A DNA stretch of 64,000 nt from the IMG/VR virus record IMGVR_UViG_3300009506_000005, positions 1 to 64,000 of that record, one strand, 5' to 3'. The notes below the pieces were generated by a model. That model saw only the letters and a list, made by a program, of their open reading frames with translations, searched no databases and was not told the DNA's origin. Numbering within the stretch: the first letter of the stretch is position 1; every line of letters begins with the position of its first letter. Origin of the DNA: a virus. Of the stretch, positions 4,301 to 34,095 are shown piece by piece. Both the position numbers and the translations under genes were made by a program.

Positions 4301-4645
4301 GGCCCCTGGGACCAGGACCAGCCGTACTACCTCTTCGATGCGTGGTCCTGGTTCACTGTCCAGGTCGAGGAGTTCACGGATGTCCTGCTCCACGTAGTGC
4401 CGTGGGGATGGGACAACGCCCTCTTCGATACATCGGTTGGAAGCGGGTTCAAGTACGACGGGTTCTTCCTCAAGGGATGGACAGATGACGCTGCGGCCGA
4501 GTGGAAGGACAACCTCGGGCTCTACCTGACTACCCAGGCGGAGTTCGATGAGGTGCCACCGAACGATCCGCCGGCTCCGCCCGGCCCGGGCTATCGTTTG
4601 CATGAGGACTTCTATGACGACAAGTGGGCCGAGGAGCTCTACTAG
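1316..4645 (+). CDS. Large tail-associated protein with LamG-like domain
   Basis: 1109 residues from a GTG start (SD GGAGAGA). Residues about 360-590 read like a concanavalin A/LamG-type jelly roll (alternating beta pattern, LTVAIRVKMRDLLY, later LSIYVNGTQMAQTV). Around residues 650-750 is a module (YDFSVSKTLTLSIDDG ... FQDPANATAEEAAAAI) that recurs in the 901-residue tail protein at 6977-9682. The C-terminal part is very rich in tryptophan spaced by short acidic segments (about residues 780-870 and 1000-1080). Position between baseplate J and other tail genes suggests a virion surface or tail-decoration protein that may bind glycans; that role is inferred from the fold type only. Confidence 0.7.
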   Translation: MPYPSHWWMPADNADLFVAASDPNIVLDSSDLEKFRQALFAYGAFDPALDPSVQMCRRLTFENRGGVQQGARLEVPENMIQGYAYTGAGPSGQPESPDYRSDAQNRFYNSFAYGLTTRGWIGGPALGFFPGMRVAWADEIVRAASDARGGWDGVAMALVDVFSGNAARSFSTLHGKASTDPNWIYSAVAIENVQDIGGPAVVTKAQTNWNGVQAGQVWAVLSGTWPGSVLAILQYWDGFSFQNLVITPNFDASLHFLALPPPLDGGVLNAGMLGRAFAGGTEIFGSGDIYTHWVNEVELSQFEPWVIDRMASRNVIPVPAGAVSGSAAGNIWINPWDLAHVPQNANFGSPVNLRENDLFWGASVELDENSLLSASSAWEQFEWEDSLSNSRARLRIDGDWDGSDSPLTVAIRVKMRDLLYFQGLAPADRYCMIWALGTQYVPGDPGGGSGVDEGIGFWFDADTEELVATMYSPTAGDWVEVRAPFSIGEFNDQRTELAVSWTGADGTDAGEPDYSLSIYVNGTQMAQTVISDGYVGAQSTAVLSVGFCRHQPTFPGRQGFRGLFSGLVMYEEAMTAEDIASAFSPDEIGAPFSNPSFEDAGEGPGNAAYWDWVSEQKVAAWAEFTAFVGRLSAPWESFEHLGSHARVISPGSEPYDFSVSKTLTLSIDDGVIQNVVIDPGAFTFQDPANATAEEAAAAITELLTGGSAVAWLGTHVSIVSDRDGEASLVQINIASTAAIELGFTADTASSQGVNDVGWYALLTEYADVVAAIFNSGEDLEESFEIWNGQPWKDAFTYVSAEWTSAIDYNEGWAQDWKLSADGFDEAWKVDPFYQGGGGDLQYVPGNALDGFLRSRPLTFPVVVPATRSKFSIYWVRSGGAPIVRKFMDMALTPGQYDTPADLVTELQSAWTTALAGETTFLEWGYTEIDGVIQLYLGWDQATGNGKRETVRLSSQRSDVSFEDVRQDLAFRGLGPGELDQDLKVPKAYAEDEQTIGPWDQDQPYYLFDAWSWFTVQVEEFTDVLLHVVPWGWDNALFDTSVGSGFKYDGFFLKGWTDDAAAEWKDNLGLYLTTQAEFDEVPPNDPPAPPGPGYRLHEDFYDDKWAEELY

Positions 4646-4659
4646 GAAAGGGAAGAAAG

Positions 4660-5379
4660 ATGGGAATCGCAGACTGGGCCAACCTTGGGAACGAACTGAC
4701 CTCGGCGGACGTGCGCCGTGGAGTGATCAACGGCGCAGTGGTGACGCCCCCGAACGGAGGCGGCTCGTTTGTCTACGGGTGGAACTCGCTGACGGACGCC
4801 GCAGGCTGCACCGGAAAGTACTGCATCCTGCCGGACTTCGATCCAACGGCGGCTGGCGGCTCGATACGCGCGGCGATCAAGCGCTTGTCGTCCGTCGGGA
4901 ACACAGGCTTCTCACCCCTCTTGTTCTTCGGTGCTCAGGGCGGACCGCCATCTGTGAACGATGAGGCATACATCCTGGGGTTGGAGAACGCTGACCCGTT
5001 CCGGATCGTCCTGAGGAAGGGATCCATCGTGAGCGGGATCCCGCCGACGGACGAGGAGGGATCTACGTACCTGAGACGGTCATCCGGCCAGTTCACGATC
5101 GCCGAGGACAACTGGTTCCATCTCCGGCTCGACGTCTTGGTGCAGCCGAACGGAGACGTCCTGCTCAAGGTGTTCAGAAACGATCTGGACGTCAACCCAG
5201 TCACAGCACCGAACTGGGAGGCGATTACCGGCATGAGTGACTTCGTGGATGATTCGCTGGCCATCGCCTCGGGGAGCGCTCCGCTCCTCGCCGGCAGGAC
5301 GGGCTACGCGTTCGTCACGCAGGAGGCCATCAACAGGCGCGCGGCCGTGGACTTCATCGAGCTGTTCGCCGCGAGCTAG
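4660..5379 (+). CDS. Tail-module protein, LamG-like
   Basis: 239 residues. ATG 4660 is preferred over the upstream in-frame GTG (4624) because it lies just behind AGGAAAGGGAAGAAAG and clear of the previous gene's stop (4645). The sequence is beta-rich with a pattern seen in jelly-roll lectin folds (WFHLRLDVLVQPNGDVLLKV; GYAFVTQEAINRRAAVDFIE), with no catalytic motif and no membrane segment. It sits between two LamG-type proteins and is followed after three bases by the next one, so it is probably a co-produced virion component. No named family recognised beyond fold resemblance. Confidence 0.6.
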   Translation: MGIADWANLGNELTSADVRRGVINGAVVTPPNGGGSFVYGWNSLTDAAGCTGKYCILPDFDPTAAGGSIRAAIKRLSSVGNTGFSPLLFFGAQGGPPSVNDEAYILGLENADPFRIVLRKGSIVSGIPPTDEEGSTYLRRSSGQFTIAEDNWFHLRLDVLVQPNGDVLLKVFRNDLDVNPVTAPNWEAITGMSDFVDDSLAIASGSAPLLAGRTGYAFVTQEAINRRAAVDFIELFAAS

Positions 5380-23650: not shown

Positions 23651-24345
23651 ATGACAACATCAAGCCGAGAATGGAAGATGGTATCCCGATTTGTGACAGC
23701 GATTGCCCGCCGGAGATTGGCTATTATCAGTGCGCGGTAGCCCAGGACGAGTGCCCTGCCTACTACCGATCCGCCTTAGCCGATGAGCGCAAGAAGCGGA
23801 TCGCTCTCAACAAGGGTCTGAATCAGATCCTGAATCTGTTCCCGGAATCGAAGGCAAAGCTGGGACTCAGCGGGGCACCGGCATCGTGCCATCGCGAAGA
23901 AGACTGGATGGATGAGCACGTCCAGGCCGTTGTTGCCGAAGTGGAAGACAATGTGTCCGATGCTCAGGCCGAGATTGAGCGGCTGAAACAAGAGGCATTG
24001 AATGACGCCTCTAGCATAGGTGCATACCAGGGTCGCGGAGATGGGTGGAAGCACCGCGCCGAGGAAGCGGAAGCCTCCCCGGCTAAGGTGCCGCTCATCA
24101 AGGAGATGGCAGGCGAGGAGCTGAATCGGGTTCTCGATGTCTGCGCAAAGATGGCCGAGGAGATATTGGATCGCCGCCACAAGATGCGCGACCTGGATCC
24201 GCGATGGTACATCTCTCAGGACATTGCCGAGGAATACGGTGTCGGCGTTGCCTGTGATCCAGATCGTCTCGGCAGGACGGAAGACTCCCCCGATCTGATT
24301 GATACCCTCCTCGCTACGCCATCCACCAAGAAGGAGAGCGAATGA
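23647..24345 (+). CDS. Cysteine-motif accessory protein with coiled coil
   Basis: 232 residues, ATGA overlap. N-terminal C-x3-C and CAVAQDEC cluster shared in outline with the previous gene, then a coiled-coil (DNVSDAQAEIERLKQEALND) and a helical C-terminal part. It overlaps the exonuclease gene by four bases. Function unknown; possibly an early accessory protein. Confidence 0.5.
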   Translation: MNDNIKPRMEDGIPICDSDCPPEIGYYQCAVAQDECPAYYRSALADERKKRIALNKGLNQILNLFPESKAKLGLSGAPASCHREEDWMDEHVQAVVAEVEDNVSDAQAEIERLKQEALNDASSIGAYQGRGDGWKHRAEEAEASPAKVPLIKEMAGEELNRVLDVCAKMAEEILDRRHKMRDLDPRWYISQDIAEEYGVGVACDPDRLGRTEDSPDLIDTLLATPSTKKESE

Positions 24346-25319
24346 TCACCTCCCGCGAAGACTGGTTGGAGGCGCGCCTCAACGGCATCGGCGGCAGCGA
24401 GGCACCCGTCATCTACAACGGCTCCGTCTACGATCGCACGATCATGGACCTGTACCTGGAGAAGCGCCGCATCGTCGAGCCCCCAGATATCAGCCACAAG
24501 CCGGACATCCAGCGAGGCAACTGGTTGGAGTCCATCGTCGCCAAGATCTATGCCAAGGAGCATGGCGTGGACGTGGACGCGCCCTTGGACAAGGTGGACC
24601 AGTGGAACCGCTTCTTCCACTGGAGTGACGAGCACCCATTCATGTTCGCGAACATCGACTTCCGGATCCGGGGCGCGAAGGTCATGGGGGAGATCAAGTG
24701 CCCGCGCGTCCGTGGCTTCATGAAGGTCTCGCGCGAGGGGCTCCACGAGCACTACCTGCTCCAGGTCATGCACGATATGGCAGTGACCGGGGACGAGCGC
24801 TGCGTCTTCCTCGTGTTCTCGGCGGAGATGTGGAAGCTCCACGTGGAGATCATCGAGCGGGACGAAGCCCTCATCTCCAAGATCATCGACGCGAATCGCG
24901 CGTTCTGGGACTGCGTGGAGCGGGGCCAGCCACCGGTGCATGAGGCGCCGGGCTCCAAGGAGAAGGTGACGGCCAAGAGCGAGAAGATGCCGGACGCCGG
25001 CGACTCGGAGATCGTGCGGCTGGAGACCCCGGACTTCTCGTCTGCCGTGAAGCAGTACCAGGAGGCCCAGGATCTGATCGCCGAGGTCACCGAGATCAAG
25101 AACGAGGCCAAGAAGCAGGCCATCGACCTCATGGGGAAAGCGGAGATCGCCGAGGGCGGCGGGTGCCGGGTCTTCCACAAGGAGGTCCCCGGGAGGAAGA
25201 CGCTGGACAAGAAGGCGCTCCAGGCCAACCACCCGGACATCGACCTCAAGAAGTTCGAGAAAGTGGGCAAGCCGTTCCGGCAGTTCAGGATATTCAACAC
25301 CTCGGCCGACGCCGAGTAA
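24342..25319 (+). CDS. YqaJ-family (lambda Exo-like) exonuclease
   Basis: 325 residues. GIGGSEA (residues 15-21) opens the YqaJ domain, then RGNWLESIVAKIY (about 60), aspartate in ANIDFRI (about 106) and GEIKCPR with E117 and K119, the PD-(D/E)XK catalytic set. Downstream helices (LHEHYLLQVMHDMAVTG) match the family. The C-terminal 100 residues are an extra charged region. A 5'-3' exonuclease generating single strands for the RecT protein encoded 24 bases downstream; together a Red/RecET-type system. Confidence 0.9.
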   Translation: MITSREDWLEARLNGIGGSEAPVIYNGSVYDRTIMDLYLEKRRIVEPPDISHKPDIQRGNWLESIVAKIYAKEHGVDVDAPLDKVDQWNRFFHWSDEHPFMFANIDFRIRGAKVMGEIKCPRVRGFMKVSREGLHEHYLLQVMHDMAVTGDERCVFLVFSAEMWKLHVEIIERDEALISKIIDANRAFWDCVERGQPPVHEAPGSKEKVTAKSEKMPDAGDSEIVRLETPDFSSAVKQYQEAQDLIAEVTEIKNEAKKQAIDLMGKAEIAEGGGCRVFHKEVPGRKTLDKKALQANHPDIDLKKFEKVGKPFRQFRIFNTSADAE

Positions 25320-25343
25320 CAACGAGAGAAGGAGAGAGATACG

Positions 25344-26309
25344 ATGCCGAAGAAGAAAGACGAACAGGACAAACAGAACCAGGCGCAAGGGAACCAGGGG
25401 CAGGAGCAGGGCCAGAACACGCAGCTCGCCAAGCCGTCTCCCCTCGCGACCATCCGTGACATGATGGTCGCGAAGAAGAACCAGTTCGCTGTGGCGCTGC
25501 CCAAGCTGATCGACCCCGCCCGCTTTATGCGCGTGGTGATGACCACCATCAAGGCCGACGGTAACCTCCTGGACTGCACCCCGGACTCCCTGTTCCGCGC
25601 GGTGCTGGCCTCGGCACAGGTGGGACTGGAGCCGGACCCCGTGCTCGGTCACGCCTACCTCATCCCGTTCTGGAACAACAAACGTGGCGTGCGCGAGGCC
25701 CAGTTCCTGATCGGCTACAAGGGGCTCATCGAGCTCGCCCGCCGCAGCGGCCAGGTCATCTCCATCTCGGCGCAGGTGGTCTACGATGCGGACGAGTTCG
25801 AGTTCAACTACGGCCTGGAGTCCGATACCCTCTCCCACAAGCCGAAGCTCGGGAACGAGGACCGGGGTGCCCCCAAGGCCGTCTGGGCGAAGGCCGTGCT
25901 CAAGGATGGCGGCCGGGCATTCGAGGTCATGTCCGTCGCCGATGTGGAGAAGATCCGCAAGATGTCCAAGGCCGGGGACTTCGGGCCTTGGAAGGACCAC
26001 TGGGATGAGATGGCCAGGAAGACCGCCGTCCGCAAGCTGGCAAAGTACCTGCCCCTCTCGCCCGAGTTCCAGCGGGCGGCCGCCATCGACGAGGCCCTGG
26101 AGCTCGGCCACTCGGCGGACCAGATCTTCGCCGAGCTCGAAGTCCTGGATGATGAGCAATCCGATCAGACCGAGCAAGGCGCTGTCGAGAGCACTGGCAC
26201 CCAGGGCAAGCTCGATGACCTCAAGAACAAGGCCGCGGCCGTGAAGGGCTCTCAGACGCCCGAGGATGGCGCCACGCCCGAGACCGGGCCCGAGGCAGCC
26301 AAGGAGTAG
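25344..26309 (+). CDS. recT: RecT-family single-strand annealing protein
   Basis: 321 residues behind GAAGGAGAGAG. Characteristic RecT sequence: MTTIKADGNLLDCTPDSLFR, AVLASAQVGLEPD, GHAYLIPFWNNKRG, FLIGYKGLIELARRSGQV and MARKTAVRKLAKYLPLSP. The N-terminal 35 residues are glutamine-rich and the last 60 acidic, both outside the core. It anneals complementary strands produced by the adjacent YqaJ exonuclease. A hairpin terminator follows the stop. Confidence 0.93.
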   Translation: MPKKKDEQDKQNQAQGNQGQEQGQNTQLAKPSPLATIRDMMVAKKNQFAVALPKLIDPARFMRVVMTTIKADGNLLDCTPDSLFRAVLASAQVGLEPDPVLGHAYLIPFWNNKRGVREAQFLIGYKGLIELARRSGQVISISAQVVYDADEFEFNYGLESDTLSHKPKLGNEDRGAPKAVWAKAVLKDGGRAFEVMSVADVEKIRKMSKAGDFGPWKDHWDEMARKTAVRKLAKYLPLSPEFQRAAAIDEALELGHSADQIFAELEVLDDEQSDQTEQGAVESTGTQGKLDDLKNKAAAVKGSQTPEDGATPETGPEAAKE

Positions 26310-26392: not shown

Positions 26393-26397
26393 CGGGG

Positions 26398-26490
26398 TGC
26401 AAGTCTGAGAAAGAGGAGTTGATGACACACGCGAGCAGGAAGCGGGAGCCGAGTGGGATTGTGGCCTACCAGCCTCTTTCTCGACTTGCA
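26398..26490 (+). ncRNA. Structured leader of initiator mRNA (long stem)
   Basis: TGCAAGTCTGAGAAAGAGG (26398-26416) is complementary to CCTCTTTCTCGACTTGCA (26473-26490) except for one unpaired base, closing a 56-base loop. The left arm begins at the predicted transcription start. Inside and beside it, GGGAGCCGAG and CTCGGCCCCC can form a competing stem. The 44 bases between the stem and ATG 26535 contain no strong ribosome-binding site. Could be a replication-control leader or a processed small RNA; function is inferred. Confidence 0.55.
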
Positions 26491-26534
26491 GCTCGGCCCC
26501 CGCTTCGTGTCCGTGTGTGTGACGAGGATATCCG

Positions 26535-27734
26535 ATGAGAGCTCCGTACACCTGTCTCTATCGAGAAATATGGAACGACGATAAATTCACGTCCATGACA
26601 GAGATCGGGAAACTCGTATTCCTCTATGTTCTCTCTTCCCCACTTGGCAACGGCCTCGGCTGCTTCAAGGCTGGCAAGGCTGCAATGGCTGAGGATATGG
26701 AATCATTCCCGGAACGATTCGAGGAAGGATTCGAGGAAGGATTGCGGAAAGGATTGTTCGAATACAACAGCCAACGTCGAGTGCTATTGATCACGAAATA
26801 CTTCGATCGGAACCCACCGATCAATCCAAATGGCATCAAGGCGCTGGCGAAAGACTACTTGACCGTTCCTGAGTGTGATCTTAAATTCAAGTGTTATCAC
26901 ATTGTTAGGGAGTTTTGCGAAAGCAGAAAGGAATCATTCGTTGAAACATTCCTTGAATCATTCCAGGAACCATTAAGCGAATCATTGCCGGAACAACCAG
27001 GATCGATCTCCCCTTCCCCTTCCCCTTCCCCTTCCGTTTCCCCTTCCGGTACTATCTCCGATAGTACGCAGAGGGGAAGGGAACCGCGCGCAAGCGCGCC
27101 CGTCTATTCTAATAATCAAAATGATGGGGAGCAGAGGGAGGATGTTGAGCAATCTTCTCCCCCATCCTTTTCGTTGGCCTTCCCAGGGATGGAGCCTACG
27201 AAGGACCCGAAGAAAATGGGGATGCCGAACCTGGATGAGTACGACCCCGAGAGCAAGGAGTACCTCTTCCTCTTGGAGGTCAAAATCCAGTTCGGTGAAC
27301 GAGTGAACGAGTGCACGACCAGGACCTTGCAACGCTTGGCTCAAGAGTTGTGCGGTGAGCGATACAACCTTATCGATGCCCATGACATCGCCATCGAGGC
27401 GAAGAGCTGGGAGGATGACCACCCGGAAAAGAAGAAGACGGGGCGAGGAATCCCGGCGTTTTTGCGCAGGTGGTGCAAGACCGAGCAGTTCAAGAAAGAG
27501 AAGGAGGAGGCCGAGAAGGAGGCTGCCAGAGAGGGGAGGGCCTCCGAAAAGGAGAAGCCAAAGCCCAAGGGCCCCAGTAGGCACCCGGATCTCCCCTACC
27601 TCGATGAGCTCCCCGAGATGCAGGAGATAGAGCGAGACCGACAGATGCTGCGGAAGAGGGCGCGCGAGGAGGAGGCGAGGAAGCAGGCCGAGGCAGAGGC
27701 CTCGTCTGGCGGGAAGGAGGTGGCCGATGCCTGA
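26535..27734 (+). CDS. Replication initiator (phage replisome organiser-like)
   Basis: 399 residues. The first 110 residues have the winged-helix plan of phage replisome organisers/DnaD-like initiators (YREIWNDDKFTSMTEIGKLV, FLYVLSSPLGNGLGCF). Residues 56-75 and 133-152 are tetrapeptide repeats E-x-F-x, encoded by 12-bp DNA repeats. A serine-proline tract follows (about 157-170), then a helical domain and a lysine/glutamate-rich C-terminus (about 300-399) that may contact the helicase. The DnaB gene lies 5 kb downstream. The lambda O gene likewise carries its origin inside an initiator, which this layout mimics. Confidence 0.7.
   Translation: MRAPYTCLYREIWNDDKFTSMTEIGKLVFLYVLSSPLGNGLGCFKAGKAAMAEDMESFPERFEEGFEEGLRKGLFEYNSQRRVLLITKYFDRNPPINPNGIKALAKDYLTVPECDLKFKCYHIVREFCESRKESFVETFLESFQEPLSESLPEQPGSISPSPSPSPSVSPSGTISDSTQRGREPRASAPVYSNNQNDGEQREDVEQSSPPSFSLAFPGMEPTKDPKKMGMPNLDEYDPESKEYLFLLEVKIQFGERVNECTTRTLQRLAQELCGERYNLIDAHDIAIEAKSWEDDHPEKKKTGRGIPAFLRRWCKTEQFKKEKEEAEKEAAREGRASEKEKPKPKGPSRHPDLPYLDELPEMQEIERDRQMLRKRAREEEARKQAEAEASSGGKEVADA
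26700..26759. repeat. 12-bp iteron-like array 1 (five units)
   Basis: Five consecutive 12-base units beginning at 26700, 26712, 26724, 26736 and 26748, consensus GAAnGATTCnnG (first unit GAATCATTCCCG). All lie in one coding phase of the initiator gene and use GAA where the surrounding genes mostly use GAG, arguing for selection on DNA. Confidence 0.7.
26931..26990. repeat. 12-bp iteron-like array 2 (five units)
   Basis: Units at 26931, 26943, 26955, 26967 and 26979 (GAATCATTCGTT, GAAACATTCCTT, GAATCATTCCAG, GAACCATTAAGC, GAATCATTGCCG), with a decayed sixth at 26991. Same consensus and period as array 1, 171 bases away with a relatively AT-rich stretch between. Candidate initiator-binding sites. 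Confidence 0.75.
27049..27067. repeat. Perfect inverted repeat next to pyrimidine tract
   Basis: GTACTATC, loop TCC, GATAGTAC: eight paired bases, three-base loop, directly after a C/T tract encoding serine-proline repeats. Could be a single-strand origin hairpin or a protein site within the candidate origin. Confidence 0.75.
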
Positions 27735-28152: not shown

Positions 28153-29140
28153 GAGCGAGAAGGTTCAGAAGTTGGTGCGCCCGGTTCTGGTCACGCCGGA
28201 GAACCACGCCGAGTACGATGCGATCGGACCGGATGACAGGTTCTCGATGCAGTTCCGCGAGGCACTGGACGCGATGTTCAGCTTGAACAAGCATCTGGAT
28301 GATCGCCTGGCGCAGTTCACCAAGGCTCCGAGGGACTGGGGCGGTGGGTACGCCACGTGGCTGGAGTCGTTCGGCATCGCGCACGAGACGGAGAACGGGT
28401 GGTGGTCTCTGGCGGCGATCGACCCGGACAACATCGACGCCTTCGTGGAGATGCGCGAGGACGCGGTGTGGGGGCATCGCTGCGATCTGGCGCAGGACAT
28501 CCTCTCCGATGTGGCGAGGATGGGCGATTTCCGTGCGCGGGTGGATTCGGTGCGGGAGATCGTGAACCGTCTGTGCCCGATGATGAAGGCCGTGAATCCT
28601 GAGGACGTTCGCGAGGAGGACTTCCTGGAGGACGAGGATGACGGCGTCGTTGACGTGCGGCTTGGCCCACGCGAGGAAGACATTGTCGCGATGATTCCGT
28701 TCAAGGGAAACTCCGTGGGCTACATCCACTCCAAGATGGTCTGCTACAAGGACCAAGTCGGCATGGCGTTCGATGCGCTGCGCGATCTCGGGTTCGACAC
28801 GAGCAAGGGCCGTGACAACAACGAGCTGCGCGAGCTGCTCAAGAAGTTCGTGGCGAAGAAGTGCGAGGAGCTACAGGATCTCGACAATGAGGTTCTCAGG
28901 CTCAAGAGGCACAGCGCGTTTCTGGAGCGGCACGGCAAGAACATGTCCATCCTCTGCGACAGGGCCATGGAGTGGTGGGAGAGGATGACCGGAGGATCGC
29001 TAGTTGGGGTGACGTTGGATCCCCACAATCCAGGCGCTTTCCTCTCATGGGAAGCTATCCAGGAGAATGACCAGTTTCCCATCACCGACAAGGCGATCGG
29101 CGAGTGGGATGTGGAGAAGGCGTTGGAGGGACCGGAGTGA
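28145..29140 (+). CDS. Unknown protein coupled to RtcB
   Basis: 331 residues, ATG behind AAGGAGAGG and overlapping the previous gene. Helical, acidic centre (EEDFLEDEDDGVVDVRLGP), a long helix (ELLKKFVAKKCEELQDLDNE). Its TGA overlaps the GTG of rtcB, so it is translated with the RNA ligase and could be a partner. No known domain identified. Confidence 0.5.
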   Translation: MAESEKVQKLVRPVLVTPENHAEYDAIGPDDRFSMQFREALDAMFSLNKHLDDRLAQFTKAPRDWGGGYATWLESFGIAHETENGWWSLAAIDPDNIDAFVEMREDAVWGHRCDLAQDILSDVARMGDFRARVDSVREIVNRLCPMMKAVNPEDVREEDFLEDEDDGVVDVRLGPREEDIVAMIPFKGNSVGYIHSKMVCYKDQVGMAFDALRDLGFDTSKGRDNNELRELLKKFVAKKCEELQDLDNEVLRLKRHSAFLERHGKNMSILCDRAMEWWERMTGGSLVGVTLDPHNPGAFLSWEAIQENDQFPITDKAIGEWDVEKALEGPE

Positions 29141-30300
29141 AGTGGGTCAACACAGATCAGTGGGTACCCATCAAGTCATGGTGCGAGGACATCGAAGACG
29201 GCGCGATGGAGCAAGCGAAGGATATGGCCAACCACCCGGCCGCGTTTCGGCATGTGGCAATCATGGCTGACGGACATCGGGGATACGGCGTACCGATCGG
29301 TGGGGTGATGGCCTGCACCGACGCCATCATTCCCTTCGCGGTTGGCTCTGACATCGGCTGCGGGATGGCCGCGGTGAAGACCACGGCCCGGGCCAGCGAT
29401 CTGACACCCGATCGGCTGCGTGAGATCATGGGCCACATCCGGGCGGCTGTGCCGATGGGCGTTGGCAATGCGCACACAGAGGATCAGCCATGGGTTGGGT
29501 TCGAGCGATTCCCGAAGAGTGTCGAGCACCTGATCCCGAACGCGCGCAAGCAGCTTGGCACCCTGGGCGCCGGCAACCACTTCATCGAGATCCAGGCTGA
29601 CGAGGATGATGGAGTGTGGTTGATGCTGCACTCCGGGTCGAGGAACCTTGGCTACAAGATCGCCGAGAGCTGGCACAAGAAGGCGGTCCAGCTCTGCGAG
29701 GCATGGCACTCAAACATCCCCTGCAAGGAGCTTACCTTCTTCCCGCTCCACTCCATAGAGGGTCACGGCTACAAAGAGGCGATGGACTTCGCGCTTGAGT
29801 ACGCCAAGGCAAACCGGCAGCTCATGCTCGGCAGGGTGATGATCGCCACAAGCCGCGTTCTCGACTGCACGTTCGAGGAGGAGATCAATATCCACCACAA
29901 CTACGCCGCGGTGGAGAACCACTATGGCAAGAACGTGGTGGTGCATCGGAAGGGCGCCACGTCCGCACGCAAGGGCGAGCTCGGGATCATCCCCGGCTCG
30001 ATGGGGACGGCGAGCTACATCGTGACCGGCCTCGGGAACCGGGAGTCGTTCGAGTCCTGTTCCCATGGAGCTGGCCGCGTCATGGGCCGGGCGCAGGCGT
30101 GCCGAGAACTCACCATGGAGGAATGCAACAAGACGATGGAGGGCATCATCTTCGGGCGCTGGGGCCAGGACAGGAGGGGGCGTGTGGACCTGTCTGAGGC
30201 GCCACAGGCCTACAAGAACATCGACCAGGTCATCGCCTCCCAGGACGATCTCGTTGAGGTGGTGGTGAAGCTGCGGCCGTTGGCTGCGATGAAGGGGTGA
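29137..30300 (+). CDS. rtcB: RtcB-type RNA ligase
   Basis: 387 residues from GTG 29137 overlapping the preceding stop. Signature segments: MADGHRGYGVPIGGV, AVGSDIGCGM (metal cysteine), TLGAGNHFIEI, HSGSRNLG, IHHNYA, RKGATSA, PGSMGTASYIV and SHGAGR, where the histidine of SHGAGR is the guanylated residue in RtcB. RtcB joins 2',3'-cyclic-phosphate or 3'-phosphate ends to 5'-OH ends using GTP and manganese, as in tRNA repair. Slightly shorter than cellular RtcB but all active-site segments are present. An RlaP-like nucleotidyltransferase at 42785-43792 may belong to the same repair activity. Confidence 0.95.
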   Translation: MKWVNTDQWVPIKSWCEDIEDGAMEQAKDMANHPAAFRHVAIMADGHRGYGVPIGGVMACTDAIIPFAVGSDIGCGMAAVKTTARASDLTPDRLREIMGHIRAAVPMGVGNAHTEDQPWVGFERFPKSVEHLIPNARKQLGTLGAGNHFIEIQADEDDGVWLMLHSGSRNLGYKIAESWHKKAVQLCEAWHSNIPCKELTFFPLHSIEGHGYKEAMDFALEYAKANRQLMLGRVMIATSRVLDCTFEEEINIHHNYAAVENHYGKNVVVHRKGATSARKGELGIIPGSMGTASYIVTGLGNRESFESCSHGAGRVMGRAQACRELTMEECNKTMEGIIFGRWGQDRRGRVDLSEAPQAYKNIDQVIASQDDLVEVVVKLRPLAAMKG

Positions 30301-32700: not shown

Positions 32701-34095
32701 GTGGGGCAGAGACAACGAGAGGAACGCATCCCTCCGCACAACATGGAAGCCGAGACCGCTGTGCTCGGTGCCGTGCTACTGAGCGAGGATGCCCTTGCGC
32801 AGATCGAGCACTGGATTGGACCAGGTGATTTCTACACCGGTCAGCATCGCGCGATCTTCAAAGCAATGATCGCCGTGCGTGACTCCGGTGCGGCAATCGA
32901 CGTGGTGACTGTGGGGAACCGTCTTCAGTCTGACGGGCAACTGGAGAAGATCGGTGGCGCGATCGCGCTCTCAAAGCTGCTCGACAGCGTGGCCACGATT
33001 GCGAACGCTGAGCACTACGCGAAGATCGTGGCCGAGCTCTCGGCTACGCGCCGTGTCATCTACGCCGCCATGGAGATAGCCGCCCAGGGATTCGCGCAGA
33101 CCTGGGATGCCGAGGACTTCGTCATCGAGGCGCAGAACCAGATCGTCTCGGCGGCCTCGGCGTTTGAGCAACGCGGCGATGGCGTGCAGATGATCGGTGA
33201 CAATATCGATCGCACGGTGGAGATCGCGGTCAATGGCAAAGAGCCAAGAGGGGTTGTGCGCTCGCATATCGCGGCAATCGACCGTCAGTTCGGTGGCCTG
33301 TACCCAGGGGAGCTAACGGTTCTTGGGGCGAGGCCGAGTGTTGGCAAGAGCTGCCTCGCGCTCAACATATCCCTCAACGCTGCGCGGAACGGGAAGCGCG
33401 TGCTCTACTTCACGCTAGAGGATGGGACTGAGAACTTCCGGCAGCGCGCCCTTGCGGCATATTCTCAAATCTCATTTTCCCGGATCAGACACAACGCCGT
33501 TGGCCAGGCGGACAGATTAAAACGCGCGGCAGACAGCCTTCGAAATCTTCCATTCGGGATCGTTGAGACTGCGGGACTGTCGTCATCTCAGATACACGCC
33601 AAGGCCGTCGCCCATCGCGCGAAGATGGGTGGGCTCGACCTGGTTGTCATCGATCACCTGCGCCGCGTGAAGGACAAGGGCCGCGATCGGTATGACAAGA
33701 CCAGTAACGCGGTGGAGCGGTTTGCGGACATGGCGAAGGACATGTGGATACCAGTCCTCCTCCTGGCCCAGTTGAACCGCGGAGTGGAGAACCGCGATGA
33801 CAAGCGTCCGCGCATGTCGGACTTCCGGGAGTCTGGAACCATCGAGGAGGATGCTCGGGCGGTGTGGTTCCTGTACCGAGAGCACTTCTACGACAAGGGT
33901 GCGAACAAGAACGAGGCCGAACTCATCGCATCCAAGGTGAGCCAGGGAGCGCCAGGGGTCGTCCGAATTTGGTGCGAGCTGGAGACCATGCGCTTCGCAG
34001 ACTGGGGAGGCGACGGACAGGCCGATCCATACCACGGAGAAACCCGCGAGCTGTTCGAAAACGAGCAGGGCGATGGGAAAGGGGAAGTATATTGA
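32701..34095 (+). CDS. dnaB: Replicative DnaB-type helicase
   Basis: 464 residues from GTG 32701 (GGTGA five bases upstream). N-terminal domain PPHNMEAETAVLGAVLLSED (about 10-30) is the classic DnaB start; Walker A GARPSVGKS at about 209-217; then YFTLEDG, VVIDHLRRV (Walker B) and LLAQLNRGVENRDDKRPRMS. The hexameric motor of the phage replisome, probably loaded by the initiator encoded at 26535. Full length for the family and apparently intact. Confidence 0.93.
   Translation: MGQRQREERIPPHNMEAETAVLGAVLLSEDALAQIEHWIGPGDFYTGQHRAIFKAMIAVRDSGAAIDVVTVGNRLQSDGQLEKIGGAIALSKLLDSVATIANAEHYAKIVAELSATRRVIYAAMEIAAQGFAQTWDAEDFVIEAQNQIVSAASAFEQRGDGVQMIGDNIDRTVEIAVNGKEPRGVVRSHIAAIDRQFGGLYPGELTVLGARPSVGKSCLALNISLNAARNGKRVLYFTLEDGTENFRQRALAAYSQISFSRIRHNAVGQADRLKRAADSLRNLPFGIVETAGLSSSQIHAKAVAHRAKMGGLDLVVIDHLRRVKDKGRDRYDKTSNAVERFADMAKDMWIPVLLLAQLNRGVENRDDKRPRMSDFRESGTIEEDARAVWFLYREHFYDKGANKNEAELIASKVSQGAPGVVRIWCELETMRFADWGGDGQADPYHGETRELFENEQGDGKGEVY

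Follow-up and report, generated by a model that had tools for sequence, protein, structure and literature searches.

The repeats inside the replication initiator gene of this virus are very likely docking sites for the initiator and part of a phage origin lying within the initiator's own gene. Binding by the initiator and firing of the origin are inferred, as no binding or replication data are available. The case rests on the repeats in the gene itself and, more strongly, on related genes in which the DNA word of the repeats differs from lineage to lineage and is the same in both blocks of one gene.

The window is a 64-kb stretch of DNA from a virus record of 113,769 bp, and repeat counts were also run on the whole record. 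Ten units in exact 12-bp steps, five in each of two blocks, had been described in the first-pass annotation and are present in the sequence (Table 1). In order, block 1 consists of GAATCATTC, GAACGATTC, GAAGGATTC, GAAGGATTG and AAAGGATTG, and block 2 of GAATCATTC, GAAACATTC, GAATCATTC, GAACCATTA and GAATCATTG. The consensus GAAnCATTC proposed at that stage was only partly adequate: GAAnCATT suits block 2, but in block 1 it suits the first unit alone, and the word common to both blocks is GAANNATT. GAA, said to open every unit, opens nine of the ten, the tenth beginning AAA; the neighbouring genes do mostly use GAG (197 GAG vs 38 GAA). The two blocks, which had been called in-phase, have a common codon register but not a common 12-bp register, being 231 bp or 77 codons apart.

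Table 1. Features of the initiator gene and the helicase gene, in window coordinates
Feature	Position	Strand	Remarks
Initiator gene, 399 aa	26535..27734	+	winged-helix N-terminal domain (predicted), then low-complexity linker and variable C-terminal part
Iteron block 1	26700..26759	+	five 12-bp units; 9-bp core GAANNATTS + 3 bp; encodes residues 56-75
Codons of helix 59-71 (helix 3, recognition-helix position)	26709..26747	+	inside block 1; DSSP on AlphaFold model
AT-richer spacer	26760..26930		44% GC
Iteron block 2	26931..26990	+	five 12-bp units; encodes residues 133-152
Hexamer tract (TCCCCT)6.5	27009..27047	+	read as SPSPSP; site where most relatives have (CAGGAA)n
Perfect hairpin GTACTATC-TCC-GATAGTAC	27049..27067		8-bp arms
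DnaB-like replicative helicase	32701..34095	+	phrog_19, E 5e-91

The tandem pair GAANNATTnnnnGAANNATT, a looser pattern, occurs seven times in the whole record, always in the two blocks, and is absent from the other strand. With S required at position 9, six tandem pairs were counted in the window against 0.00 in shuffles. GAANNATT, a pattern picked after the sequence had been seen, occurs nine times, against a mean of 0.10 and a maximum of 3 in 20,000 draws with the protein fixed and the codons taken from neighbouring genes. A pattern-free measure, the 12-bp autocorrelation, gave p = 0.0007, and p = 0.0017 from third codon positions alone. The number of 7-mers common to the two blocks of the window gene was not significant (p = 0.28 with neighbour codons, 0.10 under the family synonymous recoding). 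Taken alone, the window gene is weaker than the family, and its significance comes from the 12-bp period.

The AT-richer spacer, the pyrimidine tract and the perfect hairpin that had been placed beside the arrays were all found (Table 1), and the 81-bp stretch surrounding the hairpin folds at z = -4.1. The lowest-GC 150-bp stretch of the window, at 26851-27000, covers the spacer end and block 2 (40% vs 62%). Over 62 lineages, the spacer lies 5.5 points above its own locus in AT (p 3e-9); counted on third codon positions alone, block 2 has a clear excess (p 1e-7) and the spacer a modest one (p 0.01). GC skew at the window locus showed no switch and no origin signal, and is uninformative here. 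A hairpin, be it close to the tract or upstream, is not a regular feature of the relatives examined.

The initiator belongs to a known family of phage replication proteins. Its N-terminal part matches the profiles phrog_25711 (E 1e-19), phrog_1701, 'DnaD-like helicase loader' (8e-14), and phrog_6251, 'replisome organizer' (2.5e-4); PHROG 1701 was matched by all 52 of the 52 aligned relatives as well. No Pfam family was reached at the cut-offs, RepA_N included, and a PDB sequence search gave no credible match to a solved structure. The phage collection searched held no close relative of the window protein, and viral contigs scanned with that protein alone yielded no relatives, so that alignment-based scans were needed. 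These returned several hundred relatives, which were clustered into lineages at 70% identity, and 62 lineages were analysed. Only one relative came from 84,980 species genomes, the pattern used in that scan having been too narrow.

Reading the codons of a dozen relatives placed repeats in the same two places, each lineage having its own word: GAAGGGTTT in L006, GAACGTTCC in L008, AAACCGTTT in L009, GATGCCATC in L058/L060 and a GAAGCCTTA-type word in the Chris1 group. Both positions carry repeats in about 50 lineages; block 1 is not recognisable in a few (L119, L116, L196 and L137). Across the 62 lineages, 673 7-mers are common to blocks 1 and 2 of one gene, compared with a mean of 176 and a maximum of 345 in 20,000 shuffles of lineage partners. 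Control region pairs in the same genes showed no 7-mer excess beyond permutation. The set collected by protein homology only (25 lineages) gave 312 common 7-mers against 133 (max 234). A word that differs between lineages and is the same within a gene suits a reader specific to the initiator better than it suits a conserved host factor.

Other arrangements were also seen among the relatives. L119, an exception to the two-block rule, carries in block 2 a CCAATCATT-type unit repeated about nine times in 12-bp steps (minus strand, about 4443-4994; FPQSFPQS...). In both L175 and L008 two tandem frames match the initiator profile and may encode a pair of adjacent winged-helix replication proteins. 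Tandem repeats of other kinds lie between domain and tract in L184, L177 and L207 (VPDTVPDT, HDMPHDMPHGMPYE and GNGSGNGS) and are perhaps further iteron types. Geobacillus phage E2 (L380), a Gram-positive relative, combines CATACGGTATCGATACGGTATCC repeats in block 2 with a (GAAAAA)n tract after them, and the layout may therefore reach beyond Gram-negative hosts.

Residues 1-165 of the initiator were modelled with AlphaFold from a 52-row alignment (pLDDT 90.4). DSSP assigned helices to residues 23-34, 48-54 and 59-71 and strands to 43-45, 75-78 and 83-86, so the N-terminal domain as modelled is a winged helix of the order H1-S1-H2-H3-S2-wing-S3. PDB fold matches were weak (none with E <= 0.001) and comprised wHTH regulators and the RepA_N-type initiator structures 5kbj and 4pt7; the best viral match carries the name replisome organizer (E 6e-10). 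By convention the third helix of a winged helix is the recognition helix. In the model this is helix 59-71, the codons of which fall within block 1, while block 2 encodes the end of the folded domain, with helix 133-142, and the start of the linker. With block 1 on the presumed recognition-helix codons, reader and site would thus be written in the same bases.

Helix 59-71 of the window protein contains several glutamates, unusual in a DNA-reading helix, and direct reading of DNA by this helix is therefore not assured. It remains possible, though doubtful, that the repeats make up an origin read by another protein or by another part of the initiator, the overlap of block 1 with the helix codons being only positional; this differs from the preferred explanation solely in the reader of the sites. 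Such a reader would suit the acidic helix and the example of the DnaD N-terminal domain, which has a similar fold and does not bind DNA, but related RepA_N winged-helix initiators do bind semi-palindromic iterons with the winged-helix domain (PMC7145576). Moreover, the word varies along with the initiator between lineages, which makes a conserved host reader unlikely.

An exact search of viral contigs for (CAGGAA)4 gave at least 120 loci. In 87 of the 120 matches listed, the tract falls within an initiator gene belonging to the window family; these genes represent 53 lineages. It is read, again among the matches listed, as QE in 44 lineages, as GT in nine and on the other strand as VP in one, and the reading changed at least seven times on a tree of few columns with many unresolved forks. 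The tract is 3' of block 2 and starts a median of 51 bp past the profile-matched domain. Selecting genes by (CAGGAA)4 would bias the tract counts, and the homology-only set was therefore analysed apart; in 17 of its 25 lineages a hexamer repeat with three or more units stands at this place, and in 12 of these it is CAGGAA. Counterparts in the same place are (TCCCCT)n in the window, a (GTTCCC) variant in L004 and (GAAAAA) in phage E2, and the hexamer tracts are all purine-rich on one strand. No clear tract was found in the Chris1-like L041 cluster. The pyrimidine tract of the window is one form of this family-wide hexamer element, which co-occurs with the repeat blocks; a role in unwinding or helicase loading is an inference.

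The DnaB-like helicase encoded in the window is likely the downstream partner of the initiator. Among relatives, the neighbouring gene encodes a DnaC-like loader in PhiR5_2 and ST13-OXA48phi12.4, a DnaB-like helicase in E2 and a primase/helicase in Fraca and CharmingMan. These neighbours bear on whether the blocks might instead be operators for self-repression of the initiator gene, or serve handcuffing, with the origin elsewhere, which we regard as improbable. Iteron proteins often autoregulate, the sites are in the gene and a long leader hairpin precedes it. Against this, blocks well inside the coding sequence, an AT-richer spacer, a hexamer tract and helicase or loader neighbours are origin-like.

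The leader hairpin is long and imperfect (26395-26540, just 5' of the initiator gene; z -4.3). It overlaps a possible 38-aa leader frame, the stop of which overlaps the initiator start codon and which had no match in PHROG. Strong upstream folding was also found in L010, L094, L095 and L146 and is absent from most relatives. An Rfam match to MIR1861 at 26425-26520 was below the gathering score and was discarded as a chance match to this hairpin. A RecE/YqaJ exonuclease and a RecT annealing protein are encoded directly 5' of the initiator gene (24342-26309), and an RtcB-type RNA ligase gene lies among the replication genes (29104-30300; phrog_1075, E 3e-122).

Selection at the DNA level had been proposed for the repeats, to be refuted if homologs kept the peptide and varied freely at synonymous positions. 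The comparison was run and upheld the proposal: in most clusters both blocks show less synonymous divergence between near relatives. Synonymous differences in the Chris1-like cluster were 0.467 before the blocks, 0.194 in block 1, 0.327 between and 0.164 in block 2; the corresponding values for the L151 cluster were 0.565, 0.277, 0.477 and 0.113. The L060 cluster has no synonymous differences in either block, and the L004 and L194 clusters show no reduction in block 2. Synonymous recoding of both blocks gave 138 +/- 16 common 7-mers (max 197) against the 673 observed in the 62 lineages; singly, 44 of the 62 reached p <= 0.05 and 18 fell short.

Sharing from block to block is mainly on the opposite strand in 27 of the 62 lineages, so that the two blocks encode different peptides. 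In the E. coli phage PhiR5_2 (L376), block 1 encodes EGASKGL and the inverted block 2 encodes EAPSEPL, while in the E. coli phage Fraca (L377) block 1 encodes EGAKKGL and the direct block 2 encodes EGASKGL. Both use the same GAAGGGGCTTC-type word despite the opposite orientation of block 2, and the pair is a natural inversion experiment. The orientation of block 2 changed at least nine times on a tree from which the block columns were excluded; this tree rests on few columns and leaves many of its forks unresolved. From one site to the next the step is 12 bp in 125 cases and 11 bp in 69, and the 11-bp steps therefore rotate the reading frame along the array (2-1-0, as in L178). Peptides differ between lineages and the DNA match within a gene stays, outliving the peptide change.

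A repeat kept for the protein, as an amphipathic helix (ExF/ExL every four residues) and flexible linker with local codon bias, is scarcely credible: the four-codon unit of the window and other 12-bp lineages suits helix periodicity, but sharing is many-fold above synonymous recoding, 11-bp spacing rotates the frame, opposite-strand sharing yields different peptides, the hexamer occurs in two reading frames and on either strand, and synonymous divergence is reduced. Functionless arrays kept alike by slippage and gene conversion have no better standing; tandem repeats do slip and conversion would change both blocks together, but the same two places are occupied in about 50 lineages, the units have diverged and are not perfect copies, inverted copies exist, and synonymous change is reduced in several clusters. 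Both readings were rejected.

For an origin within the initiator gene, the following sequence of events is proposed. In each block the winged-helix initiator would bind the near-dyad 9-bp cores (GAANNATTS in the window), one every 12 bp. Clusters of bound initiator at either end may then bend or loop the AT-richer spacer between them, about 170 bp long, and assist its melting; the place of melting is inferred. The hexamer tract, which closely follows block 2 on its 3' side, might serve melting or helicase loading. The phage or host helicase machinery would then be loaded, DnaB-like in the window and the adjoining DnaC-like loader, DnaB or primase/helicase in relatives.

A further reading, advanced tentatively and at somewhat less than even confidence for all its parts jointly, is that the recognition helix is encoded by copies of the word it recognises and that lineages drift to private words, the same in both blocks. 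The hexamer would be a second origin element, independent of frame and strand and fairly constant in sequence, and would either be recognised by a factor that many hosts share or act by its physical properties. If this is true, one mutation alters site and reader together, private words are new replicon specificities, and a self-encoded recognition site would be a natural system for joint change of a DNA-binding protein and its site. The origin of many temperate phages could be read from the sequence of one gene; the phages concerned are those of E. coli, Klebsiella, Acinetobacter and Citrobacter relatives, with many unassigned viruses. The (CAGGAA)n tract, which in translation passes for simple QEQEQE or GTGTGT low-complexity sequence, would offer a mark by which origins could be searched for.

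Judged by the open-access literature, three features are new: a block placed on recognition-helix codons, words private to each lineage and kept in both blocks, and a hexamer tract independent of frame and strand. Neither the tract nor recognition-helix iterons were found described there, subscription papers being outside the search. Intragenic phage origins (lambdoid, SPP1), two iteron sets (PICI) and semi-palindromic iterons with a DnaD-like winged helix (RepA_N) are already known.

The first-pass annotation had likened the locus to the lambda O origin, with two blocks and an initiator of a different type. The two-block, origin-like array in a non-O initiator holds, origin activity itself being inferred. 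Lambdoid and Stx-phage origins are intragenic, with iterons in the initiator gene beside an AT-rich part (PMC7466680). As in the window, the iterons of lambda O are in the middle of the initiator gene (the place of window block 2, block 1 being extra), an AT-rich part adjoins and a replication partner gene follows downstream; in both, iteron number varies and lengthens the protein. The window family differs in its 12- or 11-bp units, its two blocks, one of them in the winged-helix coding part, its hexamer tract and its lineage words. Since the window initiator has no Pfam match, it does not match the lambda O model, and the name 'O' in some relatives (e.g. Citrobacter phage Chris1) is annotation only.

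In SPP1 (PMC6316719), oriL lies inside gene 38, the origin-binding protein gp38 acts with direct repeats and an AT-rich unwinding element, and, unlike in the window, there is a distant oriR; the text consulted describes no two-block arrangement on recognition-helix codons. gp38 was absent among the phage matches of the initiator searches, its own sequence not having been compared. PICI/SaPI origins (PMC6092414) resemble the window in having two iteron sets around an AT-rich region; they are outside the gene, 3' of rep, whereas both window blocks are inside the phage initiator gene.

RepA_N plasmid and PLE initiators combine a DnaD-like winged-helix N-terminal domain with semi-palindromic direct-repeat iterons (PMC7145576). 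The window initiator likewise has a predicted winged-helix domain resembling DnaD, with only the weak fold matches to 5kbj and 4pt7, but differs in lacking a Pfam RepA_N match or a sequence match to a solved structure. RepA_N plasmid origins also lie within rep. Dyad symmetry in the present family, though it seems good on inspection, is only in modest excess: all four arm pairs match in 28 of 53 consensus words, and shuffled words often do so too (mean p 0.32). The initiators of PHROG 1701, 25711 and 6251 (Chris1 'O', PhiR5_2, Fraca and Acinetobacter prophages) are of the same protein family as the window protein and have the intragenic layout in common, each lineage with its own iteron words and the window clade with a pyrimidine hexamer in place of CAGGAA.
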